From positions 1-64,000 of IMG/VR virus record IMGVR_UViG_3300022200_000039: a DNA stretch of 64,000 bases. The stretch is one strand, 5' to 3'. Shown piece by piece: positions 2,721 to 60,096 of the stretch (position 1 is the stretch's first letter; each line of letters begins with the position of its first letter). The stretch comes from a virus. A program made the position numbers and the translations under genes. The notes below the pieces were generated by a model that searched no databases, was not told where the DNA came from, and saw only the letters and a program-made list of their open reading frames with translations.

Positions 2721-2749
2721 AATATAACTTATTATTGAGGCGATGTCAA
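2721..2749 (-). promoter_or_regulatory. Sigma70-like promoter for the small membrane protein and SbcD-SbcC genes
   Basis: On the minus strand a perfect -35 TTGACA (2749-2744) and a -10 TATATT (2726-2721) are separated by 17 bases. The start codon at 2703 lies a short distance downstream. It overlaps the 3' end of the preceding gene. The -10 context TTATATTATT is shared with the promoter at 54908-54936. Confidence 0.75.
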
Positions 2750-3949
2750 GGAGTCTATCTTTTGAATTCCTGCTCCGTAAAGGATTTTATTCAAAATTTT
2801 AAGCAGCTGTTCTTCGCTTTCAACACCATTAGCTATTAGTGTTGCTTCTGGCTGTCTTTGATAATCGGACACAACTTTATTTATACCATCTTCAACAATT
2901 TCTTGATATAAATTGTATGCAACTGACCATTCTAGAGCAATTACTTGTGCTTGAAGATCTTCATCGCCCCCAGGAAGGTCAGCATAGCGCATTTCAATAT
3001 CGCCGCTATTAGATGGCCATTTTCCAGTATCTCCGAATACAAAATCTCTTAGATCTGAAATATTTTTGACATCATTTTTCAAAATATTTTCAATAACCCA
3101 CTCCTTATACTGCTCTTTAGTGTCAAAAGAATTTGGCATAACAAGGTTATCTGGTATTTGATCGTAATCTATATATGCAATGCCGCCTGGAGCTTGTGTA
3201 GTGACATGCGCTCTTCTGTAATTTAACCGACCAGAGTCAACTAATTGATCAATATGATTCCATAGAACTTCTACAGTTTCATCATTTGTTAAGTCGTCAA
3301 AAGCTTCAGCATTTATATTTCCATAGAAATCGTAGGCTTGGACTTGTGAAAGGTCAGGTGGTCCATCAGAAACTGCAAACGTCATACGCGGCTTCGAATC
3401 AGTTGCCATCATTTCTATTGCACTTTCTGGATCATCGGCAATAACGTTTATGTGATTAAAAATATCAGTACCTTGAGATAATGCTGACGCCAGCAACCCA
3501 GCTATAATTGCTTTTGTACCTCTTGTTTCTCTTCCGATTCTGTCTTTGATTTTTTGTATCGTTGCTCTCGCAAGATTTTCTTTTGACTCACCAGTTTCTT
3601 CAGAGTCGATACGATCAGCGAGTTTGGAAAAAAATCTTTTGACCATGTTAACATCTGGTTGCTCTGATTCGGAAAGTGTATTTAAAAAGTCCACAAGTTC
3701 ATCTGCAATTTTAGATGATGGATCGGATGATGGACCACCTGATGGATCACCCATTCCATGCACTTCAACTACTTGTTCTTTATCTGGAACTTGAAGAACT
3801 TTCGGTGGAGAAGCTAATCTTAAAAATTCAGCAGTTTCTTTGGGAGATAATGTGTTGATTTCCGAAGAAAAAGAGCCGTTTTGTTCTTTCAAAAAAGCAT
3901 TCACTTCTTCTTTAATAATTTGTTTTAATCTTGTTTTTGTTATTAACAT
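2732..3949 (-). CDS. Unknown protein with amphipathic capsid-targeting-like N-terminus
   Basis: About 405 residues with no catalytic motif that I recognise. The N-terminus (LKQIIKEEVNAFLKE) is amphipathic and contains I-K-E and L-K-E sites. These fit the (L/I)-x-E cleavage pattern of T4-type prohead protease gp21 and resemble leaders that send internal proteins into the T4 prohead. A Gly/Ser/Pro-rich linker follows at about 70-85, then a mostly acidic mixed-structure body. Two ATGs (3955 and 3949) are possible. I chose 3949 because AAGGAG lies 7-8 nt before it and only 1 nt before the other. It directly follows the 176-residue gene, whose stop overlaps the first ATG, so the two are probably co-translated. 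An internal head protein or scaffold component is inferred, not shown. Confidence 0.75.
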   Translation of the reverse strand: MLITKTRLKQIIKEEVNAFLKEQNGSFSSEINTLSPKETAEFLRLASPPKVLQVPDKEQVVEVHGMGDPSGGPSSDPSSKIADELVDFLNTLSESEQPDVNMVKRFFSKLADRIDSEETGESKENLARATIQKIKDRIGRETRGTKAIIAGLLASALSQGTDIFNHINVIADDPESAIEMMATDSKPRMTFAVSDGPPDLSQVQAYDFYGNINAEAFDDLTNDETVEVLWNHIDQLVDSGRLNYRRAHVTTQAPGGIAYIDYDQIPDNLVMPNSFDTKEQYKEWVIENILKNDVKNISDLRDFVFGDTGKWPSNSGDIEMRYADLPGGDEDLQAQVIALEWSVAYNLYQEIVEDGINKVVSDYQRQPEATLIANGVESEEQLLKILNKILYGAGIQKIDSLTSPQ

Positions 3950-3951
3950 TT

Positions 3952-4482
3952 TCATGCTCCTTGCAAATATTTATCTTCTATAAGTTTTTTTAAGTAATAC
4001 CGAACCCATACATTTTCAAAAGTGTTGATAGTTGGATCAAAAAAATCTTTTAGAGGATATGTGTCATCCTCGTTTGTACCATCTGGGTGAACAAAAGAAC
4101 CGTTCATGGGCGCCGAGAGCGATTCAATAAGCGATAAATATGCAGGAATAAAACTTTCTATATCTTCTTTTGTTTGTATTTCTGATGCTTTTTTGCGAAG
4201 TTCTTTTATTTGTTTTATTTTTTCAGGCGTTTCATCACGAAATACATTTCCCCAATCAGGGTCTTCATCTGTGGTCAACAATTCAAAAAAAGATCGCTTT
4301 AAGTCTTTAACGGCAAGATTTTCTGCTTCGGCGTAAATGTCTTCAATGGCTAAAGGCGCAAGTTCGTATCCTTGCTCTACAGTATCTGGATCATCATTTG
4401 TTATTAGTTTATAAACTTGTTGTGCGTATGGATCGGCAGCTTCTTTTAAAAACTTGCGCCAATTTTCAAATAGTAATTTCAT
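3952..4482 (-). CDS. Unknown protein with FENW-type capsid-targeting-like leader
   Basis: A 176-residue acidic protein that starts MKLLFENWRKFLKEAAD. The first 14 residues match those of the otherwise unrelated gene at 58327-58896 (K-L-F-E-N-W-x-K-aromatic-L-x-E, with E at position 14 in both). They resemble the T4 capsid-targeting sequence (MKTYQEFIAE) in length, in the MK start and in ending with an L-x-E site for a gp21-like protease. The remainder looks helical and matches no family I know. The ATG has AAAGGGA as ribosome binding site, and the stop overlaps the next gene. It is most plausibly an internal head protein removed from its leader on maturation. That role is inference. Confidence 0.75.
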   Translation of the reverse strand: MKLLFENWRKFLKEAADPYAQQVYKLITNDDPDTVEQGYELAPLAIEDIYAEAENLAVKDLKRSFFELLTTDEDPDWGNVFRDETPEKIKQIKELRKKASEIQTKEDIESFIPAYLSLIESLSAPMNGSFVHPDGTNEDDTYPLKDFFDPTINTFENVWVRYYLKKLIEDKYLQGA

Positions 4483-4493
4483 TTATAGTCCCT

Positions 4494-5429
4494 TTATATT
4501 GCTAATAACAAGTTTCTCAATAAATAGTCGTCATTATCAATAAAAGTAGCTTGTTTTTTACGTTGGTTAAAAACCTCTCTTGGCATCTCACCAACGTCTT
4601 CATAGCCTGTAGTATCTATTTTATATAGTTCAATATCATATTGAAGAAGCGTCTTAATAATCTTTTGCTCTTTTTTGCTTGCATCAGCATCGAGCGCCAG
4701 ATAGACGGGCGTGTCGTTAAGAACGATCTTTCGTACAAGTTTGGAGTTTGCTTGGATTGTTGAACCCAATAAAGGTATAGCGTTTCCTGCGATAATAGCA
4801 TCAAATACTCCTTCGGTTATTGTTAGGTCTTTGTTCCAGTTTACATATAGTTCATTAAAAATAATGTTTTTAGATGCTCTTGGGTTTTTATATCGATAAG
4901 AAGAGTTATTGTAAGTTCTACCAACAAAATAGTTAATATCCCCATCATTATCAAATGACGGAATAATAATTCTTTTGTAGTATTCTCCAGTATTGCAATA
5001 GCCAATCTTCCAGCGCAAAATATCTGCATCCGATACACCACGCTTGCGAAGATAATTGTACGCCGGATAAGCAACTGTAGGCAGTTTTTTACTAGCTAAT
5101 GTGTCGAACTCTGGTGGTAACATTAGCTTTTGTTTTACTTCCGGCTCTGGCTCGCTAAACAAATCCGAAAAGCGATCAAGATCTATACGATTAGTAATTT
5201 GATCCCATTTCTGTAGTAAAGTAAATGAGCCAAATCTACGTATAATACGACGGATGTTACGACCACGGTAATCGCAAATCCAGCATTTAAAAAAGTTTTT
5301 GTCTATATTGATAGACAGTTTATTTTTATGGTGGTTGCACACCGGGCATCCAAAAAGATATTCCGCTCCGTTCTGCTGATAATATCCTAATGTTTGGTGC
5401 AGTATGCTGATAGCTTCTGTTTTATTCAC
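4494..5429 (-). CDS. DNA primase with zinc finger and TOPRIM domain
   Basis: This 311-residue protein has the layout of a small DnaG/gp61-type primase, which makes RNA primers for lagging-strand synthesis. The N-terminal zinc-binding domain carries C28/C31 (CPVC) and C49/C52 (CWIC). A TOPRIM core follows, with the acidic motif ITEGVFDA and the second motif LALDADASKKE. Its length is close to T4 gp61 (about 340). The first in-frame codon is GTG; there is no in-frame ATG before the zinc finger and no clear SD sequence. A weak sigma70-like promoter would place transcription start almost on this GTG, so the message could be leaderless. It sits with RuvC-like and SbcCD-like genes, forming a replication and recombination block. 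Confidence 0.9.
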   Translation of the reverse strand: MNKTEAISILHQTLGYYQQNGAEYLFGCPVCNHHKNKLSINIDKNFFKCWICDYRGRNIRRIIRRFGSFTLLQKWDQITNRIDLDRFSDLFSEPEPEVKQKLMLPPEFDTLASKKLPTVAYPAYNYLRKRGVSDADILRWKIGYCNTGEYYKRIIIPSFDNDGDINYFVGRTYNNSSYRYKNPRASKNIIFNELYVNWNKDLTITEGVFDAIIAGNAIPLLGSTIQANSKLVRKIVLNDTPVYLALDADASKKEQKIIKTLLQYDIELYKIDTTGYEDVGEMPREVFNQRKKQATFIDNDDYLLRNLLLAI

Positions 5430-5435
5430 AAATAC

Positions 5436-5464
5436 AAGATAACATGACGTAAGCTATTAATCAA
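5436..5464 (-). promoter_or_regulatory. Weak sigma70-like promoter before the primase
   Basis: On the minus strand TTGATT (5464-5459) and TATCTT (5441-5436) are 17 bases apart. The -10 element ends only 6 nt before the primase GTG codon, so a transcript from it would have essentially no leader. Each hexamer matches the consensus imperfectly, hence the modest confidence. Confidence 0.35.
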
Positions 5465-5894
5465 CCCTCTTTTGCAAAGTTCCAGACAGTAAATCCATTA
5501 TTGGTAAGACAACCCCCCAACTTTTATTTTGGTTTCTCATGTGGTGATTCCAGTGCCACCAAAAAACTTTTTTAGCTACTGCTGGATATCTATGGACAAA
5601 GTTGTGAATTAAAATAAATAAAACACCGTAAGTAACAAGAGCAGAATAAAAGAAAGGACTGAAAAAAGCAATTGGCAGATGAGCAAGCAAAATAAATGGT
5701 ATACCAATCATTTCGACTTTTGATATTTTAGAATCAAAAAAATCGTTATGTCTTGCAGTCAAGTGGTGCTCTCGCAAGTGAAATGAAAATAATGAATCTT
5801 TCTTTTTGCCAAATTCGTGAAATAAATAACGATGAACTGCATACTCAAATGTGTTAGCATACAAGATGCCAAGAGCAAAAAGAACTATTTCCAT
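5457..5894 (-). CDS. Fatty acid hydroxylase/sterol desaturase-family membrane protein
   Basis: This 145-residue integral membrane protein has the histidine clusters of the di-iron FA_hydroxylase superfamily: HRYLFH near residue 21, HLREHH near 39 followed by another His, HNFVH near 97, and HWNHH near 113, ending in the family-typical segment WGVVLPIMDLLSGT. Hydrophobic segments lie between the clusters. Members hydroxylate fatty acyl chains, sterols or carotenoids at the membrane. It is short, like bacterial CrtZ-type or minimal hydroxylases. A strong AGGAGA lies before the ATG. The phage also encodes an Mpo1-like protein (49142-49444), an enzyme that in yeast acts on 2-hydroxy fatty acids, which hints that the substrate is an acyl chain. 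Lying among replication genes, it is best read as an auxiliary metabolic gene. Confidence 0.82.
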   Translation of the reverse strand: MEIVLFALGILYANTFEYAVHRYLFHEFGKKKDSLFSFHLREHHLTARHNDFFDSKISKVEMIGIPFILLAHLPIAFFSPFFYSALVTYGVLFILIHNFVHRYPAVAKKVFWWHWNHHMRNQNKSWGVVLPIMDLLSGTLQKRVD

Positions 5895-5904
5895 TATTTA
5901 TCTC

Positions 5905-6420
5905 CTATTGTTTGGTTAGCTCGTACCCTGCCTTAGCAATTACGATTGCATCTGCTCTGTCAAATGATTCTGGTTTTGGATTACCAGATTTAGTGTATTC
6001 AACACTAAAAGACTCTTCTGTTTCTAAAAGATGCTCTAAAACAACTAATTTTGCTTTTTCGCCTTTTGGAACTTTAATGTCGCAAAGTTTCCGTGCTTGA
6101 CTCGCACCTATATATTCAGGCTGCATTTCAAAAATCTCATACACCATCCAAGATACGATACCGTTGAATCTTTGTAATGATGCCATTGTTTTTGCAGATG
6201 AGCCTCCAGAATTAAAAAATGTAAAAGGTTGCTCGATGTAGATTCTATCAAATTTATCATATTGTTCGTAAATGTCAAGAATTTTACTTTTTATATGAAT
6301 TGACTTAGCAAAAACATCTTTGTATTTACGCAGATCTATTGAGTCATAACTGATTAGCTTACCGTTATTTACAATCGCAAAACCAGTTATGCTTGTGCTT
6401 ATATCTATACCCAAAATCAT
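5905..6420 (-). CDS. RuvC-like Holliday junction resolvase
   Basis: A 171-residue RNase H-fold nuclease of the RuvC/poxvirus-A22 type. The first acidic residue is in ILGIDISTSITGFA (D5), the second in IYIEQP, and the last in FDRADAIVIA near the C-terminus, the spacing expected for the catalytic carboxylates. Such enzymes cut Holliday junctions or branched DNA before packaging; in T4 this job is done by the unrelated gp49. The start overlaps the end of the preceding structural gene by 4 nt, so it may also be expressed with late genes. The fold and active-site pattern are clear, but the exact substrate preference is not. Confidence 0.85.
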   Translation of the reverse strand: MILGIDISTSITGFAIVNNGKLISYDSIDLRKYKDVFAKSIHIKSKILDIYEQYDKFDRIYIEQPFTFFNSGGSSAKTMASLQRFNGIVSWMVYEIFEMQPEYIGASQARKLCDIKVPKGEKAKLVVLEHLLETEESFSVEYTKSGNPKPESFDRADAIVIAKAGYELTKQ

Positions 6421-7631
6421 ATATCTAACTTTAATTTAAATGTCAAGTCTTCGTCTTCTTTTTTGCGAACAGGATTAGACAAAGTTGCTACGCCAATAAG
6501 ATTTTGTTTGTCGTCGTAGATAGCTACGCGAGAAACATAAACTTGTCGCTCAAAAGAAGCGCTGTAATCAGTATAACTTGAAGACGCAAAATTGTATATT
6601 CTTCTTGAATTGTTTTCTAAATAAATCTGAGAAGAAGTTTGTTCGACTAAACTTTGATTATACTCGATGTAAGTTGGGTTATTGGAATAATTGACTTCTC
6701 CGCGTCTAGCATGCGCGAACATCGTCATAACTTGAATGTCGTTAGTGCCTTCGAAAGATAAGCGAGAAGAAGCAGTTAAATAAGAAGCACCAGCAGTAGA
6801 TGTGCTAACATTATCATGCGCTCCTGCTCCCCAATAAATCCAAGATGGATTTTTTGGTCCCGCGCCAGCTTCCAAAGAGATTGTCTGCGAACTTAATGCC
6901 CAAGAGCCAGTTAGCAATATAAATCCTTCGTTATATAAAACAACACCAGCTACTGAACCAGAGCCAGTAGAACCAACAGGACCAGTTTGTATTAACTCTC
7001 CATTTTGTTTTGTATCTTCTAATGTTCCAATTAGCGAGCCAGTAAAATACCAGTCTAACCTAACAGACCCTGGATTTATTTTCTGTCCGTAGAAAATAGA
7101 AGGAATCGATGTTAAATTTATAGTTTGGTTTGCTTTATCTCCATAAGAAGAAGAAACTTTATAATGCTCGCTGATAGCGCCATAAAAATTTAATCTATTC
7201 TTCAGAGCATAAAAATGCGGATAAACAGGGGTAGTTTGAAAAGTCAATCCTGTGTCTGGATTAGTAGCAGTATTTCTTTGCCCTGCTGTTGCCATGAACT
7301 CGCGAGTAATAGACGCAGATAAAGGATAGCTGCCAGAAATCACAGTGCCGTAAGCATCTGTTGCTTTTGAACCGCTTAAAGCAAATCCAGAACTTTGTTT
7401 ATAAGTAAAAGGATAAATAAATGGATTTGTCCCATCGGCGCGATCAGTATTAATTTCATGCAAACTAATGTGACCAGATGGAACATTATCCGCTTGGGCA
7501 CTAAACGCGCCAGACTGCGAAGGCTTATCGTTGTAGTAGATATTGCTATCAAAAATGAAGAACTCACTTTTTGGGTAAGTTCTCATTGTGTTTAGTATGA
7601 TGTCATTTTCACCAAACTTTTTAAGGGACAT
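6417..7631 (-). CDS. Virion structural protein, paralogue of the next upstream gene
   Basis: A 404-residue Ser/Thr/Gly/Tyr-rich protein with the composition of beta-rich tail or fibre proteins. Its C-terminus (IYDDKQNLIGVATLSNP, then charged residues and FKLKLDI) matches that of the 346-residue protein encoded just upstream (LYSSQNELLAVAKLSEP, RVRLDY). Both also share NPTY and S-S repeats and similar overall order, so they are tandem paralogues. The gene is at the distal end of the structural block and overlaps the RuvC-like gene. A tail or baseplate accessory role is inferred from context only. Confidence 0.75.
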   Translation of the reverse strand: MSLKKFGENDIILNTMRTYPKSEFFIFDSNIYYNDKPSQSGAFSAQADNVPSGHISLHEINTDRADGTNPFIYPFTYKQSSGFALSGSKATDAYGTVISGSYPLSASITREFMATAGQRNTATNPDTGLTFQTTPVYPHFYALKNRLNFYGAISEHYKVSSSYGDKANQTINLTSIPSIFYGQKINPGSVRLDWYFTGSLIGTLEDTKQNGELIQTGPVGSTGSGSVAGVVLYNEGFILLTGSWALSSQTISLEAGAGPKNPSWIYWGAGAHDNVSTSTAGASYLTASSRLSFEGTNDIQVMTMFAHARRGEVNYSNNPTYIEYNQSLVEQTSSQIYLENNSRRIYNFASSSYTDYSASFERQVYVSRVAIYDDKQNLIGVATLSNPVRKKEDEDLTFKLKLDI

Positions 7632-7632
7632 T

Positions 7633-8673
7633 TTAGTAGTCCAATCTAACTCGTAGTGTTATCTCGTTTGTTGGGTCTTTGCGTAGCGGTTCTGAAAGTT
7701 TAGCAACTGCTAGTAATTCGTTTTGAGAGCTATAAAGACCGATTGTTGTAATATAAGCAACTGGAGTATCAGTAGCAACGTTTTTAACTCTGATTGTGCT
7801 AGCCGATAAATAAGTTGGGTTTGACGAGTGGTTATATTTATTATGCGGAACGCGGCAGAAATAAATAGTTGAGTTGATTTCTGTTGTGTTGTTAAAGCTA
7901 ATGTTTTGAACTCTGTGGCGAAGGGCATCGCAAGCACCCGTAATTGAAGACGAAACAAAAACCTGAGCAACTGATTTGGTTCCTGCGGACTCTGATAAGA
8001 AATCTGTCATAACATCAAACGAAGATGTAGAAAGAACCGCAATACCTGCCTGATAAAAGACTAGTCCACGAACAACGTTATCAGAAGAATAAAGAAGACC
8101 ATAATCTCCACCAAACGTATTAGTAGTTCCACCAGTATCGGAAGCAGAAACATCGGTAAGGACTTTAGTGCCAGCAAAAGGAGTTGCCCAAGAACCAGTG
8201 CCCAATGTAATGCTAACGGAACCTTTCTTAATTTGATCTTTGGTAATTAAGCGAGAGAAGTTGAGGAAGAAAGATTCCTGCATCGCTCCAACTTCATCAA
8301 GTGCTAAATCAAGCTCAAATTTACGGACAGTGTTGGTCGAGCCAGTATAACCTAAAAGAACCTGAGAGAACTGGTTATACATGTTAATCTTTTTGGCTTC
8401 CAAAGTAACACCAGGAGATCCAGAAAGAGGAGAAGCTTCATCGTATCCAATAGAAATATCAAAAATGTGGTTTGCAGAAGAAGATAAATAAGGATAGTCA
8501 TAAACAGATTGGAACTGCCCATGAGTATAGTTTTTAATGTTATCTTCACTTGGGAATGTTCCATAAGTACCGCTAATAATCGTTCCTGTTAGTGGGATCG
8601 ACTCGTGAAGTAGCGTTCTTGTTGTCGTAACGTCTTGAGTGAGATCTAAGATCTCATAGTTTGTAACTGCCAT
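7633..8673 (-). CDS. Virion structural protein, paralogue of the downstream 404-residue protein
   Basis: This 346-residue protein is rich in Ser, Thr and small residues. It ends with the same C-terminal module as the 404-residue product encoded next (I-x-LY-SSQNELLAVAKLSEPLRK and a final RVRLDY). A GGAG ribosome binding site precedes the ATG. No catalytic motif is visible. The tandem arrangement suggests duplication of a tail or fibre subunit, with both copies retained in one transcript. Confidence 0.75.
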   Translation of the reverse strand: MAVTNYEILDLTQDVTTTRTLLHESIPLTGTIISGTYGTFPSEDNIKNYTHGQFQSVYDYPYLSSSANHIFDISIGYDEASPLSGSPGVTLEAKKINMYNQFSQVLLGYTGSTNTVRKFELDLALDEVGAMQESFFLNFSRLITKDQIKKGSVSITLGTGSWATPFAGTKVLTDVSASDTGGTTNTFGGDYGLLYSSDNVVRGLVFYQAGIAVLSTSSFDVMTDFLSESAGTKSVAQVFVSSSITGACDALRHRVQNISFNNTTEINSTIYFCRVPHNKYNHSSNPTYLSASTIRVKNVATDTPVAYITTIGLYSSQNELLAVAKLSEPLRKDPTNEITLRVRLDY

Positions 8674-8691
8674 TTATATTCTCCAATTCCT

Positions 8692-9699
8692 TTATGATAT
8701 TCTGGCTATTCTAACGGGGATCTGAATTTGTGCTCCAGTGGTTCCGCCCTGCACATACACTGTTGTATCAATATAATCAATCGTATTGCTTCCAAAACTT
8801 TGGTTTACTGAACCGTAAAGAGTATATTCTGGGTCTAATCCGGCTTTGACCGTAAAAGCAACAGCACCAGCAACTCCTCGTGGTCCCCCAATTGCAGAAT
8901 ATGTTTCTTCTGTATTGTTGGAATCTGAAGTGTAGACGACACCATTTGGAATAACGTTAACTCTAGCTGCCGCATAGTTTTCTAAACCGATAGAAATAGA
9001 AGTAGCTGGAGCGGAATCAAGAGTAAAAGAAATATTTAAACCATTGTTATCGGCAGTATTGTTAAAAACATTATCCACGCCAGAAGAGCCAAGTACAGAA
9101 CCTATAAAACGACTATCATAAAATACGTAGAAAAATCTATCAATTAAATTATTGTTTGTTAAATAACTTGTTCTATTCGTAGATGAGCCAACAGGTACAT
9201 TGCCGAATCCAGTATCTAATCCAGTCTCCAGAAGAACATATCTACCAGTAGAAGTTCCATTAAGGTTATCAGTCGATCCGCTAGCTCTCAATACAGAGCC
9301 GATATTTAAACTTGTTGTATCTTTACTTGTGTCTGTTAGATAAAATAAGCTTGAAGCAGGGGAAGAACCCTTTCTAGCAATACCAGTACCAATACCAGCT
9401 AATTCATTGGTCTTCATTGTTGGAAGGTAAAGTAAGTCTGTAGCTGTATTTGGTAGTAGTCCGTAGTTAATTCCAGCGTTAACTTGCGTAAACGCTTCAA
9501 AAATTGGCGTCTGCAAAATCGTAAGGTCATAATATGCAGAGCCAGAAGGATGAGTTTTATCGTATAGTGAATAATCAATCTCATCGTCGCCTAGTGCGAA
9601 CTTGGTAACTCTAAAGTCACCCTGCGCCATACGACGGCGACCTGTCTCAGTTAAGACAGCATCTAAAATAATGTCGCCAGAATTATCTAAAAAAGCCAT
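8692..9699 (-). CDS. Virion structural protein with conserved MAFLDNSGDIILDAVLT-type N-terminus
   Basis: 335 residues. The N-terminal block (DNSGDIILDAVLTETGR, then KFALGDDEIDYSLYD) is a strongly patterned segment that I associate with structural proteins of large marine myoviruses, though I cannot name its function. The rest is Gly/Ser/Thr/Asn-rich and beta-like. AGAGGAA lies before the ATG. It sits between fibre-like genes, which supports a tail or baseplate role. Confidence 0.72.
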   Translation of the reverse strand: MAFLDNSGDIILDAVLTETGRRRMAQGDFRVTKFALGDDEIDYSLYDKTHPSGSAYYDLTILQTPIFEAFTQVNAGINYGLLPNTATDLLYLPTMKTNELAGIGTGIARKGSSPASSLFYLTDTSKDTTSLNIGSVLRASGSTDNLNGTSTGRYVLLETGLDTGFGNVPVGSSTNRTSYLTNNNLIDRFFYVFYDSRFIGSVLGSSGVDNVFNNTADNNGLNISFTLDSAPATSISIGLENYAAARVNVIPNGVVYTSDSNNTEETYSAIGGPRGVAGAVAFTVKAGLDPEYTLYGSVNQSFGSNTIDYIDTTVYVQGGTTGAQIQIPVRIARIS

Positions 9700-9739
9700 A
9701 AGTGTTCCTCTTTTTATTAAATAGTTTTGCTTTTCTTTA

Positions 9740-12325: not shown

Positions 12326-13218
12326 TAATAAGTTCCTGTTGAGGTGCTGGTCGTAGGTGATACACTAACCGAAGTTGATGTTGAAACAGTTGTGGTCGTT
12401 GTAGCGGCTTGTCCAGCTAAAGCAGACTGCGTTTTTTCTTTCATTGGCGTTGTTTTGTTAAATCTAAAAGTTACTTCTTCTGAAGTTGGAGAAAAATTGT
12501 ACATCTCGTTAGTATAAGTATCTATAAAGTTAGTAAAGTTTTCTTCAAAAGTTTCATTTGCCCACTTATTTTGTATGGCTGTAGTTTCTGCTTCAGAGTA
12601 TTGCACGTCGAAACCAACAAGCATGTCAAAGATATCATTTGGGTCACTTACGTTTGGCTCTGTATTTTCGTTTGCGAATGTTGGTCTAGCAGTACCACCG
12701 TTTTCTGCTGACAGATAATAATAACCGTCTTCAACTATGCTTGTTATTCCAAATATTCCTTGTTGAAAAGTGACTTTAACTAAATAAGAGCCAACATCTG
12801 ATGTGTTTCCAGATACTAAATTATAATCAATATTTGTATTATTGGAATTCATTTGTAAAACTACAGTCCCAGATGATGATGTTTTTGCTTCGTCGGCACT
12901 ATCATATGTACCATATGCAATTAACGAATTATATGCAAAGCTAAAATTATTTCCATCTATCAAATTAGAATCTGCTATAGAGCCGTTAATATAGGCAACT
13001 TTCCAAACTTGATAAAAGCTATTAACTATGTCAGCCGTATCTGACGTTGCTAAATTGCCAATTTTTATTTTCGAATTGCCTGATTCTATTTCACTGGTGG
13101 CAGTTTGAGTGGTGCTTCTGGTGGCAGTTTGAGTGGTGCTTCTGGTGGCAGTTTGAGTGGTGCTTGTAGATTGTTCTTTCAAAGCTTCAGTGGCTGCGGT
13201 AGATGGAACTATCGGCAT
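12325..13218 (-). CDS. Structural protein with Thr-rich STTQTATR repeats
   Basis: A 297-residue protein whose N-terminus carries three tandem copies of an 8-residue unit (STTQTATR) and whose C-terminus is again Thr/Ser-rich (TTTTTVSTSTSVSVSP). The central part (about 60-250) looks globular, with a FNEN/GYYYLSAENGG-like beta pattern. Low-complexity Thr/Ser ends are typical of virion linkers or flexible tails and may be sites for length variation. GAGGAGT lies before the ATG. It follows the 220-residue gene, which ends in a similar Thr-rich segment, so the two may share that low-complexity sequence by slippage or duplication. Confidence 0.72.
   Translation of the reverse strand: MPIVPSTAATEALKEQSTSTTQTATRSTTQTATRSTTQTATSEIESGNSKIKIGNLATSDTADIVNSFYQVWKVAYINGSIADSNLIDGNNFSFAYNSLIAYGTYDSADEAKTSSSGTVVLQMNSNNTNIDYNLVSGNTSDVGSYLVKVTFQQGIFGITSIVEDGYYYLSAENGGTARPTFANENTEPNVSDPNDIFDMLVGFDVQYSEAETTAIQNKWANETFEENFTNFIDTYTNEMYNFSPTSEEVTFRFNKTTPMKEKTQSALAGQAATTTTTVSTSTSVSVSPTTSTSTGTY
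13096..13167. repeat. Three tandem 24-bp repeats inside the 297-residue structural gene
   Basis: Two identical 24-bp units (13096-13119 and 13120-13143) and a third nearly identical copy (13144-13167) lie head to tail. Each encodes one STTQTATR-type octapeptide in frame, so copy-number change would lengthen or shorten the protein without a frameshift. Confidence 0.9.
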
Positions 13219-13219
13219 T

Positions 13220-54121: not shown

Positions 54122-54128
54122 TTATACC

Positions 54129-54887
54129 TCATGGGCACTGCTCCGAGTGCCGAAATACACATTTTTTACAAGACAAGCGATTTTTAATGTATCGCTGACT
54201 TTTAATATTATACAATGCCTTTTCTAAAAGTTTAAGGGCATTTTGAGTTTTTCTTGGACCACTAGTGACTCTAAAAAATTCAACTCGATCCTTCTTGGCA
54301 GTACGCTTAAGTAGTGCAAAGTGAGTTTCAATCTTTTTAGGGTCAATATTCATTTTAACAGAATAGAAATACTTGTATAGGGTTAGCTGATAAGTTGTGA
54401 TAGCATCAGACCGCTTTTGAGCGTCCCAGCCCCATGAACAAGTCTTCCAATCAAAGATGTGGTACTTGCCGTCAGGTGTCTTGACAATAGCATCAATATA
54501 TCCGTTGAACTGATAATCTTCGTGATTATCAATCGGCTCACCAAGCTCTTGCTCAATAGCAACAACCTCGTATTCACCGAAATAATCATCAAGCGCATCT
54601 TTAATCTCAGGGATAATCTGATTACCTTGAGTACGCATATCATTTACAAGGTCTTCTCTAATTTCAACATCAGATAGACTTTCAATGTTCTTAGAAAACT
54701 CTTGAATAAAATAAGACTCGTCAATATCCTCGTTTAGTAGAATTTTTTCACAAGCGCTGTGGATTGTAGTTCCAAAAGCCGTAAACTCATTACCAGTAAA
54801 GCCGTCGATCTTGTCAATACGAGTAAGCTTGTGGTAAAAAGCACAAAAAACCCAATCCTTCAAGCTAGAATAAGAAATATGTGCCAT
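54129..54887 (-). CDS. Cas4/RecB-like PD-(D/E)XK nuclease with Cys-rich ends
   Basis: 252 residues. The nuclease core is EDYQFNGYIDAIVKTPDG and HIFDWKT (GxxDxxxxxxxx... then D-x-K), the PD-(D/E)XK pattern of PDDEXK_1/Cas4 proteins. A single Cys lies in the N-terminal DWVFCAFYHKL and a cluster at the C-terminus (SCKKCVFRHSEQC), the arrangement that binds a 4Fe-4S cluster in Cas4 and AddB. Probably a DNA-end-processing exonuclease for recombination or degradation of host DNA. AAAGGAGAA and a sigma70-like promoter precede it. There is no CRISPR array in the window. Confidence 0.85.
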   Translation of the reverse strand: MAHISYSSLKDWVFCAFYHKLTRIDKIDGFTGNEFTAFGTTIHSACEKILLNEDIDESYFIQEFSKNIESLSDVEIREDLVNDMRTQGNQIIPEIKDALDDYFGEYEVVAIEQELGEPIDNHEDYQFNGYIDAIVKTPDGKYHIFDWKTCSWGWDAQKRSDAITTYQLTLYKYFYSVKMNIDPKKIETHFALLKRTAKKDRVEFFRVTSGPRKTQNALKLLEKALYNIKSQRYIKNRLSCKKCVFRHSEQCP

Positions 54888-54907
54888 CTTTTCTCCTTTG
54901 TCATAAT

Positions 54908-54936
54908 AATATAACCTTTGGAGATCAGATCGTCAA
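54908..54936 (-). promoter_or_regulatory. Sigma70-like promoter before the Cas4-like nuclease
   Basis: On the minus strand -35 TTGACG (54936-54931) and -10 TATATT (54913-54908) with a 17-base spacer. It overlaps the last bases of the preceding gene and directs transcription into the nuclease and probably the glycosyltransferases after it. Confidence 0.72.
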
Positions 54937-55619
54937 GTTTGATCTTTCATTTTATTTATTTTATCTATCTTAGAGTATAGAATAGGGCAAGTCATTTTCA
55001 ACCAAACGAGGTCTTCGTTTAAATAATAATAAGTAAATCCTGTTGCAAAATATTCTCTTAATGAAGTAGCAGCATAAGCACTAATAAAAATACCAAGAGC
55101 GACCATTGATAATTTATTATAGCCAACTTTGTTTAATAGGTAATCATCAAACTCAGCATCATATTCTGGATCTAAAAAGAAACTTTTTGGTGTTTTGTAA
55201 CCATGAGCCCAAAGCTCATCATAAAGACGAATTCTTTTTTGCAAGAACTCTTCTTCAAGTTGTTTGTCTCCGTATATTTCATATCCATAAGATTCTTCTA
55301 AAGAATGTGACATTTCATGAATTAAATCATCAATAAGATCTGCCTCATTATCTTGTTCATTTGAAATGTAAAGGCAACCATCACTATAGAATGCATTTAT
55401 TTTTCTTTCTTCAAACTCTTTGAAGTGTCCGATTGCAACCATTTCAACTTCAGAAAATAAATGTGGCGGCAAAACACTTTCTAATTTTGAAATTACTACT
55501 TCGGGGTTAACTCCGTTTGAAACAGGATCTTTAACGTAAACGTGTAGACCGTTTGAAGTATAAAAATCGTTCACGCTATTCAGATTCCGCTGATAGGACT
55601 CTTTCAAGTAATTGAGCAT
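54933..55619 (-). CDS. HEXXH zinc metallopeptidase-like protein
   Basis: 228 residues. The central DLIHEMSHSLEES contains HEMSH (HExxH) with a Glu-rich helix after it (DKQLEEEFLQKRIRLYDELW), which fits a zincin with the third ligand downstream. A hydrophobic segment follows (about 170-190, LSMVALGIFISAYAA). GAGGG lies 8 nt before the ATG, which supports this start even though it overlaps the preceding gene by 44 nt. Substrate unknown. A virion or host protein-processing role is open. Confidence 0.75.
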   Translation of the reverse strand: MLNYLKESYQRNLNSVNDFYTSNGLHVYVKDPVSNGVNPEVVISKLESVLPPHLFSEVEMVAIGHFKEFEERKINAFYSDGCLYISNEQDNEADLIDDLIHEMSHSLEESYGYEIYGDKQLEEEFLQKRIRLYDELWAHGYKTPKSFFLDPEYDAEFDDYLLNKVGYNKLSMVALGIFISAYAATSLREYFATGFTYYYLNEDLVWLKMTCPILYSKIDKINKMKDQT

Positions 55620-55854
55620 CTTCTAAACCCTCTTGGTATCCTCTTAAGAAATTTTCTTCGGCTACTGCATAAAGAAATTCTGGAAACTCAGAAGCAATAA
55701 CCTCGACAATCATATTCACAGAAACTTCTTCAGAATTAAATTTCGTCCCAGCATACTCAACCAAATATTTTTTCAAATCAGAATCAGGCTGGACAACCAG
55801 CCCTAAATCTGGGTTTGTATGAACTTCTTCTTCTGTCAATACTTTCTCATTCAT
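55576..55854 (-). CDS. Small acidic protein, unknown
   Basis: 92 residues, acidic and mainly helical (PDSDLKKYLVEYAGTKF, VIASEFPEFLYAVAEENFL). No family recognised. It is packed against the PhoH gene and overlaps the zincin gene, so it is part of the same transcript. Confidence 0.65.
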   Translation of the reverse strand: MNEKVLTEEEVHTNPDLGLVVQPDSDLKKYLVEYAGTKFNSEEVSVNMIVEVIASEFPEFLYAVAEENFLRGYQEGLEDAQLLERVLSAESE

Positions 55855-57191
55855 TATAACACCTTTGACGCTAATGTAGCAAGGTCAGAACGCTCGCCTT
55901 TCTTAAAAGTAACGTGCCCAGCAATCTTATAATTCTTAAACGATTCAACCGCATGAGCTAACCCATTTGATGTTTCGTTTACATAAGCATTGTCAATCTG
56001 TTCAACGTCACCAGTTAGAATGATTTTTGCATTCTCACCTATTCTTGTAATTATAGTCTTAATTTCGTGTTTTGTTAAGTTCTGTGCCTCATCAATTACG
56101 ACAAAAGCATCTGATATACTTCTTCCGCGAATGTAAGTTAGTGCTTCAATTTCGATTTTGCCTTTATCAACATAAATCTGCATTGAAGTACCATCGCCCA
56201 TAAGAAACTTTAAGTTATCTTGAATAGGCATAAGCCACGGAAGCATCTTTTCTTCCATCGTACCGGGAAGGAAGCCGATATCTTTGCCAAGAGGCTGAAC
56301 AGGTCTAGAAACAATAAGACGAGAATAATGATTACTGTTTCCTCTTAATCCTATTGTTTGTTGCAGCCCTGCTGCTATCGCACATAAAGTTTTACCTGAG
56401 CCTGCTCTACCAACAAGAGAAACCAACCTAACATCAGGATCCATTAGCAAATCAATTGCAAAGGCTTGCTCTTTGTTTCTTGAGTTAATTTTCCAATCAG
56501 GTATCTTGTCATGATATATTTTTTTCAAAGGCGTCTGATGGTCCACAAAGCGTGCTATGCATGTTTTCTTTGGGTTCGCGTTAGAGATCAACAAAAGATA
56601 TTGGTTTGGGTACAGCTTTTGATTAATTTCTTCTTTGTTTATAAATAAATGATTTCCATCGTAAAACTGTTCGATAAAAGCATCATCAACAAGAATCTCA
56701 GTAAAACCTTGGTAAAGCTCGTCTGAGGATTTTACAGCTTTTTCAGAATCATAATCTTCTGCAACGATACCTATAGAGTCACAGATAACTCGCATGTTAA
56801 TGTCACGAGAAACTACAACTACTTTTCTTTTTGGATTTGTATTTTCAATTGCTTTGGCTGTTGCAATGATCTGATGATCTGGAACTGATAAGTTTAAATC
56901 AGATGGAAAGTTTGCATGCTCTAAAGCATCATAAGACATTACTTTTAATATGCCTTTGCCTTTATCGAGTCGGACGCCTTTCTGAAGACAACCCTTCGCT
57001 CTTAGTTCGTCTAAAAAGCGAATAATCTTTCTTGCGTTAACACCGACTGAATCTTGTCTTTTCTTGTGCTTGTCTATTTCTTCAAGCACTTTTAGAGGCA
57101 AAAATAAATCATGATTTTCAAATTTATAAATTGCTTCTGCGTCTGTTAGGCAAACGCTTGTATCTAATAAATAATTCTTCTTTACAGCCAT
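55854..57191 (-). CDS. PIN-PhoH fusion (PhoH2-type) ATPase
   Basis: 445 residues. The N-terminal PIN ribonuclease domain has YLLDTSVCLTD with acidic residues, KVLEEIDKHKK and SVPDHQIIATA. The C-terminal PhoH ATPase has Walker A VGRAGSGKT (about 258-266), FVVIDEAQNLT (Walker B) and LTGDVEQID. This order (PIN then PhoH) is PhoH2, reported in bacteria as an RNA helicase/RNase. PhoH genes are common in marine phages and were once linked to phosphate. The SD sequence AAGGGG is held in a possible hairpin (57198-57241). Confidence 0.93.
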   Translation of the reverse strand: MAVKKNYLLDTSVCLTDAEAIYKFENHDLFLPLKVLEEIDKHKKRQDSVGVNARKIIRFLDELRAKGCLQKGVRLDKGKGILKVMSYDALEHANFPSDLNLSVPDHQIIATAKAIENTNPKRKVVVVSRDINMRVICDSIGIVAEDYDSEKAVKSSDELYQGFTEILVDDAFIEQFYDGNHLFINKEEINQKLYPNQYLLLISNANPKKTCIARFVDHQTPLKKIYHDKIPDWKINSRNKEQAFAIDLLMDPDVRLVSLVGRAGSGKTLCAIAAGLQQTIGLRGNSNHYSRLIVSRPVQPLGKDIGFLPGTMEEKMLPWLMPIQDNLKFLMGDGTSMQIYVDKGKIEIEALTYIRGRSISDAFVVIDEAQNLTKHEIKTIITRIGENAKIILTGDVEQIDNAYVNETSNGLAHAVESFKNYKIAGHVTFKKGERSDLATLASKVL

Positions 57192-57197
57192 AAAAAA

Positions 57198-57241
57198 CCC
57201 CTTATTGGCAAAAGATAAATAGTTCTCAACACTAATAAGGG
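57198..57241 (-). promoter_or_regulatory. Possible SD-sequestering hairpin upstream of PhoH
   Basis: In the minus-strand transcript CCCTTATT (57241-57234) can pair with AATAAGGG (57206-57199). The paired 3' arm contains the AAGGGG Shine-Dalgarno of the PhoH gene, and six Us follow before the AUG. The loop is 27 nt. It may be a translational switch, or an imperfect terminator; the sequence cannot decide between them. Confidence 0.45.
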
Positions 57242-57250
57242 CAATTAAAA

Positions 57251-57325
57251 GTCTGAGTGGTAGGACTTGAACCTACAACCCCCGCACCCCAAATGCGGTG
57301 CGCTACCAATTGCGCTACACCCAGA
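57251..57325 (-). tRNA. tRNA-Pro (anticodon UGG)
   Basis: 75 nt forming a full cloverleaf: acceptor TCTGGGT/ACTCAGA, D stem GCGC with loop AATTGGTA, anticodon stem CCGCA/TGCGG with loop TTTGGGG (anticodon TGG), and T arm GTAGG TTCAAGT CCTAC. The discriminator is C, and no CCA is encoded. It reads CCA proline codons. Confidence 0.95.
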
Positions 57326-57335
57326 AATAAGATAA

Positions 57336-57408
57336 TGGAGATAAAGAGATTCGAACTCTTGACCTTCTGCGTGCAAAGCAGATGCTCTCCCAACTGAGCT
57401 ATACCCCC
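57336..57408 (-). tRNA. tRNA-Ala (anticodon UGC)
   Basis: 73 nt cloverleaf: acceptor GGGGGTA/TATCTCC, D stem GCTC/GAGC, anticodon stem TCTGC/GCAGA with loop TTTGCAC (anticodon TGC), T arm AAGAG TTCGAAT CTCTT. The discriminator is A; no CCA is encoded. It lies 10 nt upstream of tRNA-Pro on the same strand. Confidence 0.95.
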
Positions 57409-57415
57409 ATAATCC

Positions 57416-57610
57416 TTATCCGACTTTTTCAGTTAGATACTGAACATCGGAAGCAACATCGCTTTTAAAGCGCTTGAGTTCGTTTCGAAGAATATTAACT
57501 TCATCATTTAAAGCGCTGATTCTACCAAGAGCGTGAACAAGTCTTTTATTCTGCTCTTGAAGTCTGCTCTCAAAATAATTTCTATCGAATACATCTACGG
57601 TATCGGGCAT
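57416..57610 (-). CDS. Small coiled-coil protein
   Basis: 64 residues from the ATG at 57610, supported by AAAAAAGGAGTGAAG directly upstream; the longer frame to 57664 has no such site and would overlap the promoter region. It is strongly heptad-patterned (LQEQNKRLVHALGRISALND). Function unknown. The two tRNAs follow 8 nt after its stop and are probably processed from its transcript. Confidence 0.7.
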   Translation of the reverse strand: MPDTVDVFDRNYFESRLQEQNKRLVHALGRISALNDEVNILRNELKRFKSDVASDVQYLTEKVG

Positions 57611-57662
57611 CTTCACTCCTTTTTTAAAAATTGAAAACCAAATTTGCTTTATTCTTAATAAC

Positions 57663-57690
57663 ATTTTACACCATTCACGTCAAATGTAAA
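57663..57690 (-). promoter_or_regulatory. Possible sigma70-like promoter before the coiled-coil gene and tRNAs
   Basis: On the minus strand TTTACA (57690-57685) and TAAAAT (57668-57663) are spaced by 16 bases. A TTGACG lies just after the first hexamer and offers an alternative -35. It sits in the 86-nt gap after the HNH gene and would drive the coiled-coil gene and tRNAs. Confidence 0.45.
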
Positions 57691-57696
57691 GTTATT

Positions 57697-58191
57697 TTAC
57701 CACAAATAATTCTTCCAGATATCATTTATTTGAGAATTACTAACATATCTAAGAGAAGAATATCTTGGTGGTGCTGGAGTTCTTAGCAAATCCATGCCAC
57801 TTTCTTTTGGCGTTCTATTACTTTTCTTTTGGTTGCATTTTCTGCAAGCAGCAACAAGATTGTTCCAAGAGTTATTGCCACCACGAGATTTAGGCAAAAC
57901 ATGATCTAATGTCAGTTCTTTATCTGGAAATCTGTTTCCGCAGTATTGACAAATATTATCATCTCTACAAAGAATGTGCTTTCTAGTTGGAGATACAATA
58001 GCTGTCCTATACTTTACCAATCGATTTAAAACAATAACTGCTGGAAGCTCAAAAGTTTGGCTTGTTGAATTTATTTTTTGTGTGTAATTTTCAATTGCCT
58101 TTGCTTTGCCAATAATACAAAGAACTAAAGCCTCTAAAGAATCTATAACTTCGATTGGTCGAAAAGTAGAATCTAATTTTAAAGTTTTCAT
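57697..58191 (-). CDS. HNH endonuclease
   Basis: 164 residues. The C-terminal half has the zinc-ribbon HNH core: CQYCGNRF, then LTLDHVLPKSRGGNNSWNN (catalytic D-H and N) and ACRKCNQKKSNRTP. The N-terminal half (LDSTFRPIEVIDSLEALVL) is a DUF-like region often seen in free-standing bacterial HNH proteins. It may be a homing-type nuclease or take part in packaging. Its start overlaps the preceding small gene (TAATG). Confidence 0.9.
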   Translation of the reverse strand: MKTLKLDSTFRPIEVIDSLEALVLCIIGKAKAIENYTQKINSTSQTFELPAVIVLNRLVKYRTAIVSPTRKHILCRDDNICQYCGNRFPDKELTLDHVLPKSRGGNNSWNNLVAACRKCNQKKSNRTPKESGMDLLRTPAPPRYSSLRYVSNSQINDIWKNYLW

Positions 58192-58319
58192 TATTCTTCT
58201 TCGTATTCTTCTTCACGCTCGTCATAACAAGAAAGACAAATTATCTCTCCATCTTCAGTAATTTCATAACCTGAATTATAAATGCAGGTATCGCAGAAAT
58301 CACAAACTTTAGCAGTCAT
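58191..58319 (-). CDS. 42-residue zinc-ribbon protein
   Basis: A short reading frame with MTAKVCDFCDTCIYNSGYE and a second pair ICLSC, ending in a Glu-rich tail (EREEEYEEE). Cysteines at about 6, 9, 12, 28 and 31 would bind one zinc. Its stop and the HNH start share a base (TAATG). Likely a small nucleic acid- or protein-binding factor. A weak AT-rich leader without a close SD reduces certainty. Confidence 0.7.
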   Translation of the reverse strand: MTAKVCDFCDTCIYNSGYEITEDGEIICLSCYDEREEEYEEE

Positions 58320-58326
58320 TTATTTT

Positions 58327-58896
58327 TTAATCTCCGTAAAAGTCCACATCAAGTGGAGTAGCTGGTAAAGGTTGCCAAATGGCAACAATAACTTGGTTTG
58401 GATCTTTACTTTGGGGATAAATAAAGCCTTTAAAGCCATATTCTCTTTCACCTAAAGTTGCCACTCTTTCAAAAACGTTTGTTGGGTAATATCTTGGAGT
58501 ACCAAACTCTTTTTCTCTTATTTCTTTATATTCATCAACACGTCTGGATAATCCAAGAGGATCTTTCATAACAGGATACAAATCATGTTTATTAACTGTA
58601 ACAGTGTAAGCAGAGCCTTGAATTCTTCCAATGCCAGTATCTTCTTGCCCAAGACGAGTAAAATAAAACACTCTTGGACGATCCCAAGCTCGATATTCAG
58701 CTTGACTATACGTTTTTCTACCAGCAGCAGCAATTTGAGGATCTAAAACTTCAATATCTGGAGTCGAAGAAACATGATAAAGCTGAACTTGGTCAGGAAG
58801 ATCTAAAGGATAAGCATTATCTAACTTTGCAAGCTGCTCATCATCCATTATTTCTTCAGTTAAATATTTGTTCCAGTTTTCAAAAAGTTTTTTCAT
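58327..58896 (-). CDS. Possible ADP-ribosyltransferase-like protein with capsid-targeting-like leader
   Basis: 189 residues. Residues 1-14 (MKKLFENWNKYLTE) match the leader of the 176-residue protein 54 kb away and end in an L-T-E gp21-type site. The body begins VQLYHVSSTPDIEVLDPQ (His41) and continues with RPRVFYFTRLGQED and QVIVAIWQPLP, the loose H...(Y/F)...pattern of ART/PARP-fold proteins that start LYHxS. In T4, Alt is an ADP-ribosyltransferase packaged in the head with a capsid-targeting leader. That parallel makes an injected modifying enzyme a reasonable hypothesis. The fold call is by eye and could be wrong. Confidence 0.7.
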   Translation of the reverse strand: MKKLFENWNKYLTEEIMDDEQLAKLDNAYPLDLPDQVQLYHVSSTPDIEVLDPQIAAAGRKTYSQAEYRAWDRPRVFYFTRLGQEDTGIGRIQGSAYTVTVNKHDLYPVMKDPLGLSRRVDEYKEIREKEFGTPRYYPTNVFERVATLGEREYGFKGFIYPQSKDPNQVIVAIWQPLPATPLDVDFYGD

Positions 58897-58897
58897 T

Positions 58898-59245
58898 TTA
58901 AGTGTTTCCTGTATCTTCTTCTATAAAGAAATTATCTATATCGTACTTATCATATTGTGCTGAAAACTCACTATAAGTCAACCCTAAAAATCTTGCAGCA
59001 TCTATTTTTGATTTAGAAGTTGAAATAGCAAATTTTAAAAGTGCTTCTTTCACAATATAATCCGATCTTCTCCAAATGTCAAGTCCATATAACCTGTATT
59101 TTAAATTAGCACATGCTAGTTCTAACTTTATAGCAATTAGATCTTCTAAAGTTAAATTAGAAATTAACACTAACAGATCATTGCTGATCAAATTATTATA
59201 TGTTAATTTATTAATTATACTTTTATTCTTTAATTTGCTAATCAT
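58898..59245 (-). CDS. Small DNA-binding protein with C-terminal Fis-like helix-turn-helix
   Basis: 115 residues. The C-terminal part (SKSKIDAARFLGLTYSEFS) has the recognition-helix pattern of Fis-type HTH proteins. The N-terminal half is helical and AT-rich in sequence. A sigma70-like promoter with TTGACA precedes it, and palindromic sequences lie both over its leader and inside its first codons, which suggests autoregulation. The ATG at 59245 has no clear SD, but it is the first in frame. Confidence 0.7.
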   Translation of the reverse strand: MISKLKNKSIINKLTYNNLISNDLLVLISNLTLEDLIAIKLELACANLKYRLYGLDIWRRSDYIVKEALLKFAISTSKSKIDAARFLGLTYSEFSAQYDKYDIDNFFIEEDTGNT

Positions 59246-59268
59246 TTGCTAATCACTACTGATCAATT
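59175..59268. repeat. Pair of GATCA-type palindromes and an 11-bp tandem repeat at the HTH gene start
   Basis: Two related sites, 59175-59193 and 59251-59268, agree at 13 of 16 bases; the first is a near-perfect inverted repeat (GATCA-TTGC-TGATC). Between them TTTGCTAATCA is repeated twice head to tail (59234-59255), overlapping the start codon. The layout resembles an operator for the HTH protein that it abuts. Confidence 0.5.
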
Positions 59269-59275
59269 CTTTAAT

Positions 59276-59304
59276 AATGTAATTTGATTTCAATAATCTG
59301 TCAA
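59276..59304 (-). promoter_or_regulatory. Sigma70-like promoter of the HTH gene
   Basis: On the minus strand a perfect -35 TTGACA (59304-59299) and -10 TACATT (59281-59276) are 17 bases apart, in the 77-nt gap after the 257-residue gene. Possible operators lie immediately downstream. Confidence 0.72.
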
Positions 59305-59322
59305 GGGACTTTTTTGTAATTT

Positions 59323-60096
59323 TTAATCTAAACCAAGATCAATCTCATCTTCTGTAGGTTGCTCCAGATCTTGTTTAGCCATATCATAAGCTTGGTTAGA
59401 AGGCTCTTCAATACTTGGATCTAATTCTTTTTCAAACTTATCAAAATAAAGCTTTACATTTGTAATCAAGTAATCGTAGAATAATTCTTGATCTTCAGCA
59501 TTAGATAACAACTCATAAGCATCAATTATGTTTGTTTCGATCTTTTTAAAACACGAATAAGCAATGTTTCTTCCAGTCTCGTCCTGACCTTCAATACCAA
59601 ATTCTTTTCTTGGATCTTCAGGTTCTTCTTCTTCCGCTTTTTCAGCATCAGAGCGAATATCAATAAACTTGTCAGATTCTGGATTAGCTTCATCGTCTTC
59701 AATTTCAATACTAATCTCTTCTTCTAAATCTTCTTCAGAGTTGCCTGCTTTTGTATTCATTTCAACAGGAGTTAAAGTATTAATGATAGCTTGGATAACG
59801 TGAGCACGGAAAGACTTACGTTGTTCTGGGTCGGTTGTCATAATTTTGTAATCTGCTTCTAAAACAGGAACAATCTTCTTTAATAGATCTTCCAGAATGT
59901 TAATTCCAGTAGACTTATTTGGGGTTGGATTTGTATCAGAAACCTGAGCTTCCAAGATCAATAAATCGCGAATAATAGAACGTAGTTTTTGCTCTTCTAT
60001 TTCAATTGCTTTTTGTTCTTGCAATCTTTTTCTTTTAGTGACTCTGATCATTTCTCTAATGTCTTGTCTCAGTTGTTTCTCTTCTTTTGTAATCAT
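59323..60096 (-). CDS. Acidic protein with amphipathic N-terminus, possible internal/scaffold protein
   Basis: 257 residues, highly acidic in the middle (SEEDLEEEISIEIEDDE). The N-terminus is a Lys/Arg/Gln helix running into LRSIIRDLLILEAQ, which contains an I-L-E/A site like the (L/I)-x-E cleavage pattern of gp21-type protease. The C-terminal half is helical. This composition is typical of scaffold or core proteins. Its start overlaps the nucleotidyltransferase stop by 4 nt. The role is inferred. Confidence 0.7.
   Translation of the reverse strand: MITKEEKQLRQDIREMIRVTKRKRLQEQKAIEIEEQKLRSIIRDLLILEAQVSDTNPTPNKSTGINILEDLLKKIVPVLEADYKIMTTDPEQRKSFRAHVIQAIINTLTPVEMNTKAGNSEEDLEEEISIEIEDDEANPESDKFIDIRSDAEKAEEEEPEDPRKEFGIEGQDETGRNIAYSCFKKIETNIIDAYELLSNAEDQELFYDYLITNVKLYFDKFEKELDPSIEEPSNQAYDMAKQDLEQPTEDEIDLGLD

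Follow-up and report, generated by a model that had tools for sequence, protein, structure and literature searches.

Which proteins phages inject into their hosts, and how these act on host defence, is an open question that has mostly been approached phage by phage. It is raised here by a 64,000-base stretch (the window) of the 66,811-base uncultured virus record IMGVR_UViG_3300022200_000039, in which proteins with unrelated bodies begin with the same short segment: do such starts address their proteins to the phage head? The window has the look of a T4-like contractile-tailed phage, with baseplate-like, primase-like and PhoH-like genes and two tRNAs, and its minus strand carries nearly all likely genes. 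The original prediction, made from the letters alone, was that several window proteins start with T4-like capsid-targeting leaders and form a packaged, injected set. In our analysis the best reading, and a probable one, is a leader-directed head-targeting system of the T4 kind that has been greatly expanded.

From sequence we infer four steps for the leader proteins, namely docking, cleavage, packaging and injection. A short amphipathic N-terminal leader, of class A in two window genes and of class B in one, would dock the new protein in the core scaffold while the prohead is being assembled. The phage's gp21-type S77 protease would cut after [LI]-x-E and free the body, which would remain in the head with the DNA and be delivered into the next host. 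The phages would reuse a few leader classes (A–D), some of which resemble parts of core proteins, while the cargo behind them changes.

Leader genes of the window and their families

The N-termini of the proteins 3952-4482 and 58327-58896, both on the minus strand, are MKLLFENWRKFLKEA and MKKLFENWNKYLTEE. They follow the common plan MKxLFENWxK[FY]LxE, which we call class A, and the same 14-residue start that had been claimed for them is therefore confirmed. Their DNA is diverged, as also claimed, several codons being different between the two leaders. The bodies are indeed unrelated: among the fetched loci outside its own record, the 3952-4482 protein matched through its first 15 residues only, which are identical in one other protein (L063, L077 and L118) of unrelated body, and Pfam and PHROG searches with the 3952-4482 body gave no significant match. 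The homologues of 58327-58896 (Table 1) keep a class A-type start. The record has a third copy, MKLLFENWRQFISEE, beyond the window at positions 65182-66318. There are three class A genes in this 66.8-kb record and at least five each in two other records (G006 and G018), on unrelated bodies.

Two further proteins had been proposed to have related starts. The open reading frame (ORF) listed earlier as 2732-3949 is actually 2732-3955; it does carry a leader, ITKTRLKQIIKEEVNAFLKE, but of a different class, class B, the second large N-terminal family (LRxIIKEE...LxE). The 59323-60096 product was dropped from the leader set because it belongs to a conserved core family, which aligns over its full length (19 tblastn hits) and whose start has no fixed L-x-E end in 11 aligned members.

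Both classes were counted at N-termini and in internal segments. The strict motif Wxx[FYH][LI]xE is present at N-termini more often than chance would give, in the first 32 residues of 2 of the 64 window ORFs, versus none of 546 internal 32-residue segments; the corresponding fractions are 7/263 versus 0/1524 in G006, 5/191 versus 0/1492 in G018, and 1/1018 versus 1/7453 in ORFs of loci fetched by an arbitrary 14-mer. For the class B regular expression they are 1/64 versus 0/546 in the window, 2/263 versus 2/1524 in G006, 5/191 versus 2/1492 in G018 and 0/1018 versus 1/7453 in the arbitrary-14-mer loci.

At the scale of viral contigs, the class A pattern LFENW..[FY]LxE, for which no start codon was required, gave at least 142 matches in at least 118 stretches. 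Among the matches listed, 123 lie exactly 3 residues after an ATG, 6 have an ATG 4-12 residues upstream and 13 have neither. These 13 include two C-terminal matches, in a 612-residue ORF (L017) and a 334-residue ORF (L097), one internal match (L067) and one that looks like chance (L003); the remaining nine have the upstream stop no more than 41 residues away, and other start codons are possible there. A second pattern, in which the positions after W were left free (at least 119 stretches, pooled with the earlier class A loci), yielded at least 207 MKxLFENW starts. Of these, 202 are complete or at least 60 residues long and 200 have a comparable body; the 200 proteins fall into at least 100 single-linkage clusters (blastp, E 1e-3), control loci L121-L175 being omitted, while a gp23 and a tail tube protein (L185, apparently matched by chance) are still among the 100 representatives. 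Among the 100 listed representatives the free positions converge on R-K-[FY]-[LI]-x-E, with R in 77 at position 9, K in 56 at position 10, Y, F or H in 51, 32 and 10 at position 11, L or I in 63 and 20 at position 12, and E in 85 at position 14.

Class B (pattern LRxIIKEExxxxL, at least 120 stretches) has at least 132 matches. Some start codon lies within 12 residues in 131 of the 132 listed, a tally that accepts any start codon and contains about three apparent chance matches (L326, L407 and L417). The 108 complete proteins with an ATG 4-12 residues upstream form at least 88 body clusters, and E follows two places after L in 75% of the 88 listed. Class C (FxLKKFLxENK, at least 120 stretches) has at least 137 matches, 134 of the 137 listed with a start codon within 14 residues; its 119 complete proteins form at least 55 clusters, and [LI]xE follows in 46 of 55 versus 46 of 370 body segments. 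Class D (MQKLAGI, at least 120 stretches, counted in newly fetched loci) has at least 120 matches; among those listed, 91 are C-terminal, 27 are near N-termini by the script's rule and 2 are neither. Where it serves as an N-terminal leader, [LI]xE follows in 23 of the 26 listed; two of the exceptions look like chance (L606 and L667) and the third has VNE.

Could the likeness be chance or ordinary protein homology? Short N-terminal amphipathic helices are common, and 59323-60096 did prove to be ordinary homology. Set against this, the class A bodies form at least 100 clusters and the class B bodies at least 88, with no blastp similarity between clusters at E 1e-3, and the control pattern MKxFENW, one residue shorter, gave 55 matches, none then exactly followed by [RKN]x[FY]LxE; two of the 55 are gp23 genes, and L124 comes near (FENWRKFQ, in a class A record). 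In 257 billion bases of bacterial and archaeal genomes the class A pattern matched six times; one of these matches, on a 7-kb contig from a metagenome-assembled genome, is by eye a true leader. We regard this explanation as hardly credible. Among named phages, tblastn with 30-34-residue leader queries, a search of low power at that length, gave no convincing isolate of class A or B.

The codons of the class A leader differ strongly in use from those of the bodies: CTA encodes L4 in 49 of 99 versus 13%, CGA encodes R9 in 37 of 77 versus 14%, and AAG encodes K10 in 41 of 56 versus 32%. The skew at codons 4, 9 and 10 suggests that the leader spread as a copied DNA segment. It fits an explanation in which the shared start acts at the level of DNA or RNA, as a translation start signal or a recombination cassette, and its peptide is without a function. 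This is very improbable: the residues hold while the third positions vary (third-base information of 0.3 bit in codon 9, 0.1 in codon 12 and 0.9 in codon 14), none of the 30 upstream bases exceeds 0.5 bit, [LI]xE is often kept through insertions and deletions, and bodies swap between classes of differing sequence, as described below.

Some related elements were seen in other arrangements. A 1145-residue minus-strand ORF (L189) has class A-like segments at its start, in its middle and at its very end (MKLFFEGWRKFIKE, C-terminal), and also holds KKSELRRMIKEL units, resembling a chain of leaders. The L017 protein, with the motif at its C-terminus, looks by eye like a lysozyme joined to an SGNH hydrolase. 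Another recurring N-terminus, KK[RI]DPRYFLNE, with an L-x-E end, is present in L097 and in G018 (L278, 2813-3319) and is possibly a fifth leader class.

The [LI]xE site, the prohead protease and the head genes

According to a review (PMC9026906), residues 4 and 7 of the T4 capsid-targeting sequence act mainly in targeting and residues 8 and 10 in processing, and the gp21 cleavage motif is L/I-X-E. The T4 internal proteins IPII and IPIII start with MKTYQEFIAEA; in IPI (MKTFKEFTSTTTPVSTITEA) the [LI]xE is displaced further on. Y4, F7, I8 and E10 of T4 align with W8, [FYH]11, [LI]12 and E14 of class A at identical spacing, and this arrangement (aromatic at i and i+3, [LI] at i+4, E at i+6) is well kept among the 100 listed representatives: W8 is fixed by the pattern, Y, F or H is at position 11 in 93, L or I at position 12 in 83 and E at position 14 in 85. 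Classes B-D have only the [LI]xE end in common with the T4 plan.

In class A, [LI]xE stands at residues 12-14 in 78 of the 100 listed representatives, versus 256 of 22,126 body positions. Twelve of the other 22 have it within residues 11-20, versus 181 of 2,186 ten-residue body segments. That the site is often kept when insertions shift it is expected of a protease site more than of a helix face. The match to T4 spacing at the functional residues and the retention of a shifted [LI]xE both give indirect support to the capsid-targeting reading.

A gp21-like protease gene, named as a check of the original prediction, was sought with the S77 profile PF03420. No match was found in the 66.8-kb record, and the control genomes of that profile search had none either; PF07068 (gp23) likewise has no match in the record. 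The head module therefore probably lies outside the fragment. Of eleven records related to that of the window, the 203-kb one has a protease match; the other ten, 12-51 kb long, have none. For a wider comparison we used 34 of the 35 listed class A records of at least 75 kb (L061, 75.1 kb, left out) and, as controls, 19 of the 20 listed records of at least 50 kb picked by two chance patterns and without known class A leaders (L174, 52.8 kb, omitted), the samples being drawn from the first 80 rows per scan. The protease is present in 22 of the 34 class A records (19 of 24 at 90 kb or more, 3 of 10 at 50-90 kb) and in 13 of the 13 listed class B records of at least 90 kb, the record of L124 being counted under class A instead. 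Among the controls, 1 of 6 records of at least 90 kb and 1 of 13 of 50-90 kb gave a match; one further match was below the cut-off. This enrichment in leader-bearing records is also indirect support for capsid targeting.

The leaders recur among the head genes themselves. All 16 gp23 genes compared from class A records have LLRE or LLKE in the propeptide region, with its E at residue 59 or 60, and four gp23 genes of one close family start with MK(E)LFENW. The ORF behind the protease gene, read by eye in 21 plus-strand loci (12 loci in which the script found no plus-strand protease gene were left out), has a class B-like start in 12, mostly one homologous gene by its look, a class A-type start in 3 and another start in 6. 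Class A starts on some gp23 genes and behind the protease gene are further indirect support for the reading.

Class D leads to the scaffold. There are 89 class D matches within 12 residues of a stop, 70 of them with at least 700 bases downstream; a gp23 homologue follows within 1.5 kb in 69 of these 70, compared with 1 of 31 other class D matches. The C-terminal class D peptide therefore ends the gene that precedes gp23, the position of the scaffold gene in T4. Where class A records were examined (16 loci), all 12 ORFs found in this position end with a related tail, R[MWL]xxLAG[IL]; such a tail was not found in T4 gp22. The use of the scaffold's own tail as a leader, together with natural leader swapping, again argues for targeting to the head.

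The leader might instead dock its protein outside the head, on the replication complex, the membrane or a host factor, with [LI]xE being merely the end of an amphipathic helix. Such docking would suit those bodies that match enzymes able to act in the infected cell (Pkinase, NUDIX, exonuclease). It is nevertheless unlikely: [LI]xE is kept nearby in 12 of the 22 listed representatives that lack it at residues 12-14, four classes of differing sequence all end in [LI]xE, the same segments recur at the start of certain gp23 genes, after the protease gene and at the scaffold's end, and the S77 protease is enriched in leader-bearing records.

Several observations weigh against head targeting. Neither protease nor gp23 is matched in the window's own record, and 5 of the 24 class A records of at least 90 kb have no protease match, although these may be fragments. 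The protease enrichment may owe as much to shared T4-like ancestry as to function, and, given the codon bias of leaders relative to bodies, part of the sharing may come from recent common descent. In ten of the 100 class A representatives, residues 11-20 contain no [LI]xE. In the few C-terminal (L017, L097) or internal (L067) class A elements, a cut after the motif would free no cargo. Taken together, the capsid-targeting proposal gains from the T4 spacing, the [LI]xE site, the protease enrichment, the head-module parallels and leader swapping, and loses 59323-60096 and a protease within the fragment.

Leader swapping, cargo and genomic setting

The same body can stand behind different leaders. 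The 2732-3955 protein, itself with a class B leader, is homologous over residues 218-394 to G006 94568-95488, where the leader is of class A, and over residues 131-396 to an L230 protein whose leader is class B-like. A P-loop protein (63% identity) has a class B leader in L359 and a class A leader in L085, and one body family (36-42% identity) has class A in L059, class C in L749 and class D in L605. The class expressions of the swap search were loose and mislabelled some proteins (e.g. L787), and only the pairs quoted are relied on.

We put at about even chances a broader proposal, a multi-class head address code in which leaders A-D would mimic prohead parts, be interchangeable and mark an injected set far beyond the three internal proteins of T4. 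Class D would mimic the scaffold tail, class A the start of some gp23 precursors and class B the start of the gene behind the protease. As a side observation, made after the fact, the T4 core protein gp67 (L690:4282-4524) contains DLIKEEKIAIARNFLIE, which resembles the class B LRQIIKEExxxLxE and may be another instance of core mimicry. Should the leaders prove to be head addresses, each leader-bearing gene in uncultured T4-like phages is a predicted injected protein, and the leader tag alone may reveal injected proteins in genomes never cultured; the scaffold-tail leaders would then suggest a route of cargo recruitment.

By inspection, most leader genes of G006 and G018 are grouped in segments some 12-16 kb long; an exception is a G006 class A gene at 94.6 kb, away from the cluster. 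In the isolated Flavobacterium phage immuto, for which a prohead protease and gp23 are annotated, eight starts at 102-119 kb, directly before the terminase gene, look class B-, C- or D-like by eye; some of them, not all, have a clear [LI]xE. A regular-expression scan of immuto ORFs flagged five ORFs, none of them among the eight, and the class D leader query (tblastn against named phages) found immuto phages only. An isolated phage with starts of three classes allows a direct test.

The majority of leader bodies have no Pfam family match. Among the matches listed (E 1e-3), class A bodies fall into 19 families among 100 representatives, with one or two members each, including protein kinase, NUDIX, DnaJ, HD, exonuclease, amidase and alpha/beta hydrolase; class B bodies fall into 10 families, one member each, among 88 representatives. 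Several bodies with a YH-type start looked by eye like ADP-ribosyltransferases such as T4 Alt. This likeness was not supported: the 58327 and 65182 proteins had no significant Pfam, PHROG or PDB sequence match, and ten proteins searched against Pfam gave one weak ART-PolyVal match (E 0.11). The AlphaFold models of the first two (predicted local distance difference test scores, pLDDT, of 41.8 for the 58327 protein and 37 for the 65182 protein) were too poor for a fold search.

The features of the window are collected in Table 1. The window's nucleotidyltransferase has no leader; in L061 a class A leader precedes the domain of a related nucleotidyltransferase.

Table 1. Leader genes of the window and features near them
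Feature	Position	Strand	Remarks
Leader-bearing protein, 407 residues	2732..3955	-	Class B leader
Class B leader, residues 1-24 MKMLITKTRLKQIIKEEVNAFLKE	3884..3955	-	Predicted cut after E24; class B family
Leader-bearing protein, 176 residues	3952..4482	-	Between primase-like gene 4494-5429 (by eye) and 2732-3955
Class A leader, residues 1-14 MKLLFENWRKFLKE	4441..4482	-	Predicted cut after E14
tRNA-Pro and tRNA-Ala	57251..57409	-	Between PhoH-like gene and 58327 leader gene; context only
Leader-bearing protein, 189 residues	58327..58896	-	Homologues in L014, L018, L179, G018 (L286)
Class A leader, residues 1-14 MKKLFENWNKYLTE	58855..58896	-	Predicted cut after E14
Conserved core gene	59323..60096	-	No leader gene; neighbours are nucleotidyltransferase and metallopeptidase-like genes
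Nucleotidyltransferase gene	60093-60884		Adjoins 59323-60096
Metallopeptidase-like gene	61148-61843		Near 59323-60096

Comparison with T4 and other phages

Literature searches with the leader letters gave unrelated papers, and topic searches brought up papers on T4, P1, SPN3US and other phages, whose titles and abstract starts had nothing on these leaders; this coverage is partial and no proof of absence. T4 already provides the principle; the novelty here lies in the scale, the classes and the swapping. In T4, according to PMC12373910 (2025), the packaging leader is the sole feature shared by Ip1-3, which inhibit type IV restriction enzymes. T4 Alt, according to PMC9026906, is an injected ADP-ribosyltransferase whose N-terminus is cut.

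Like the leaders described here, the T4 capsid-targeting sequence is N-terminal and 10-19 residues long, reads aromatic-x-x-aromatic-[LI]-x-E in IPII and IPIII, is borne by unrelated cargo, has a displaced [LI]xE in IPI and occurs in a phage with an S77 protease, a gene matched in most of the long leader-bearing records. Different from T4, the class A leaders have a longer prefix, LFENW, and Trp replaces Tyr; the uncultured phages have three further leader classes, at least 100 class A body clusters and some enzyme-like cargo; and leader classes swap on one body, head targeting being here a prediction from sequence. The site motif is the same as that of T4 gp21 and its L/I-X-E substrates (gp23 and gp22), and the S77 homologues printed from leader-bearing records contain GELDHP and GISSRG segments, cleavage in these phages being predicted. 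The ejection proteins of the SPN3US type, likened here by description, are also packaged in the head and ejected, some being trimmed by a prohead protease, although SPN3US differs in being a giant Salmonella phage.

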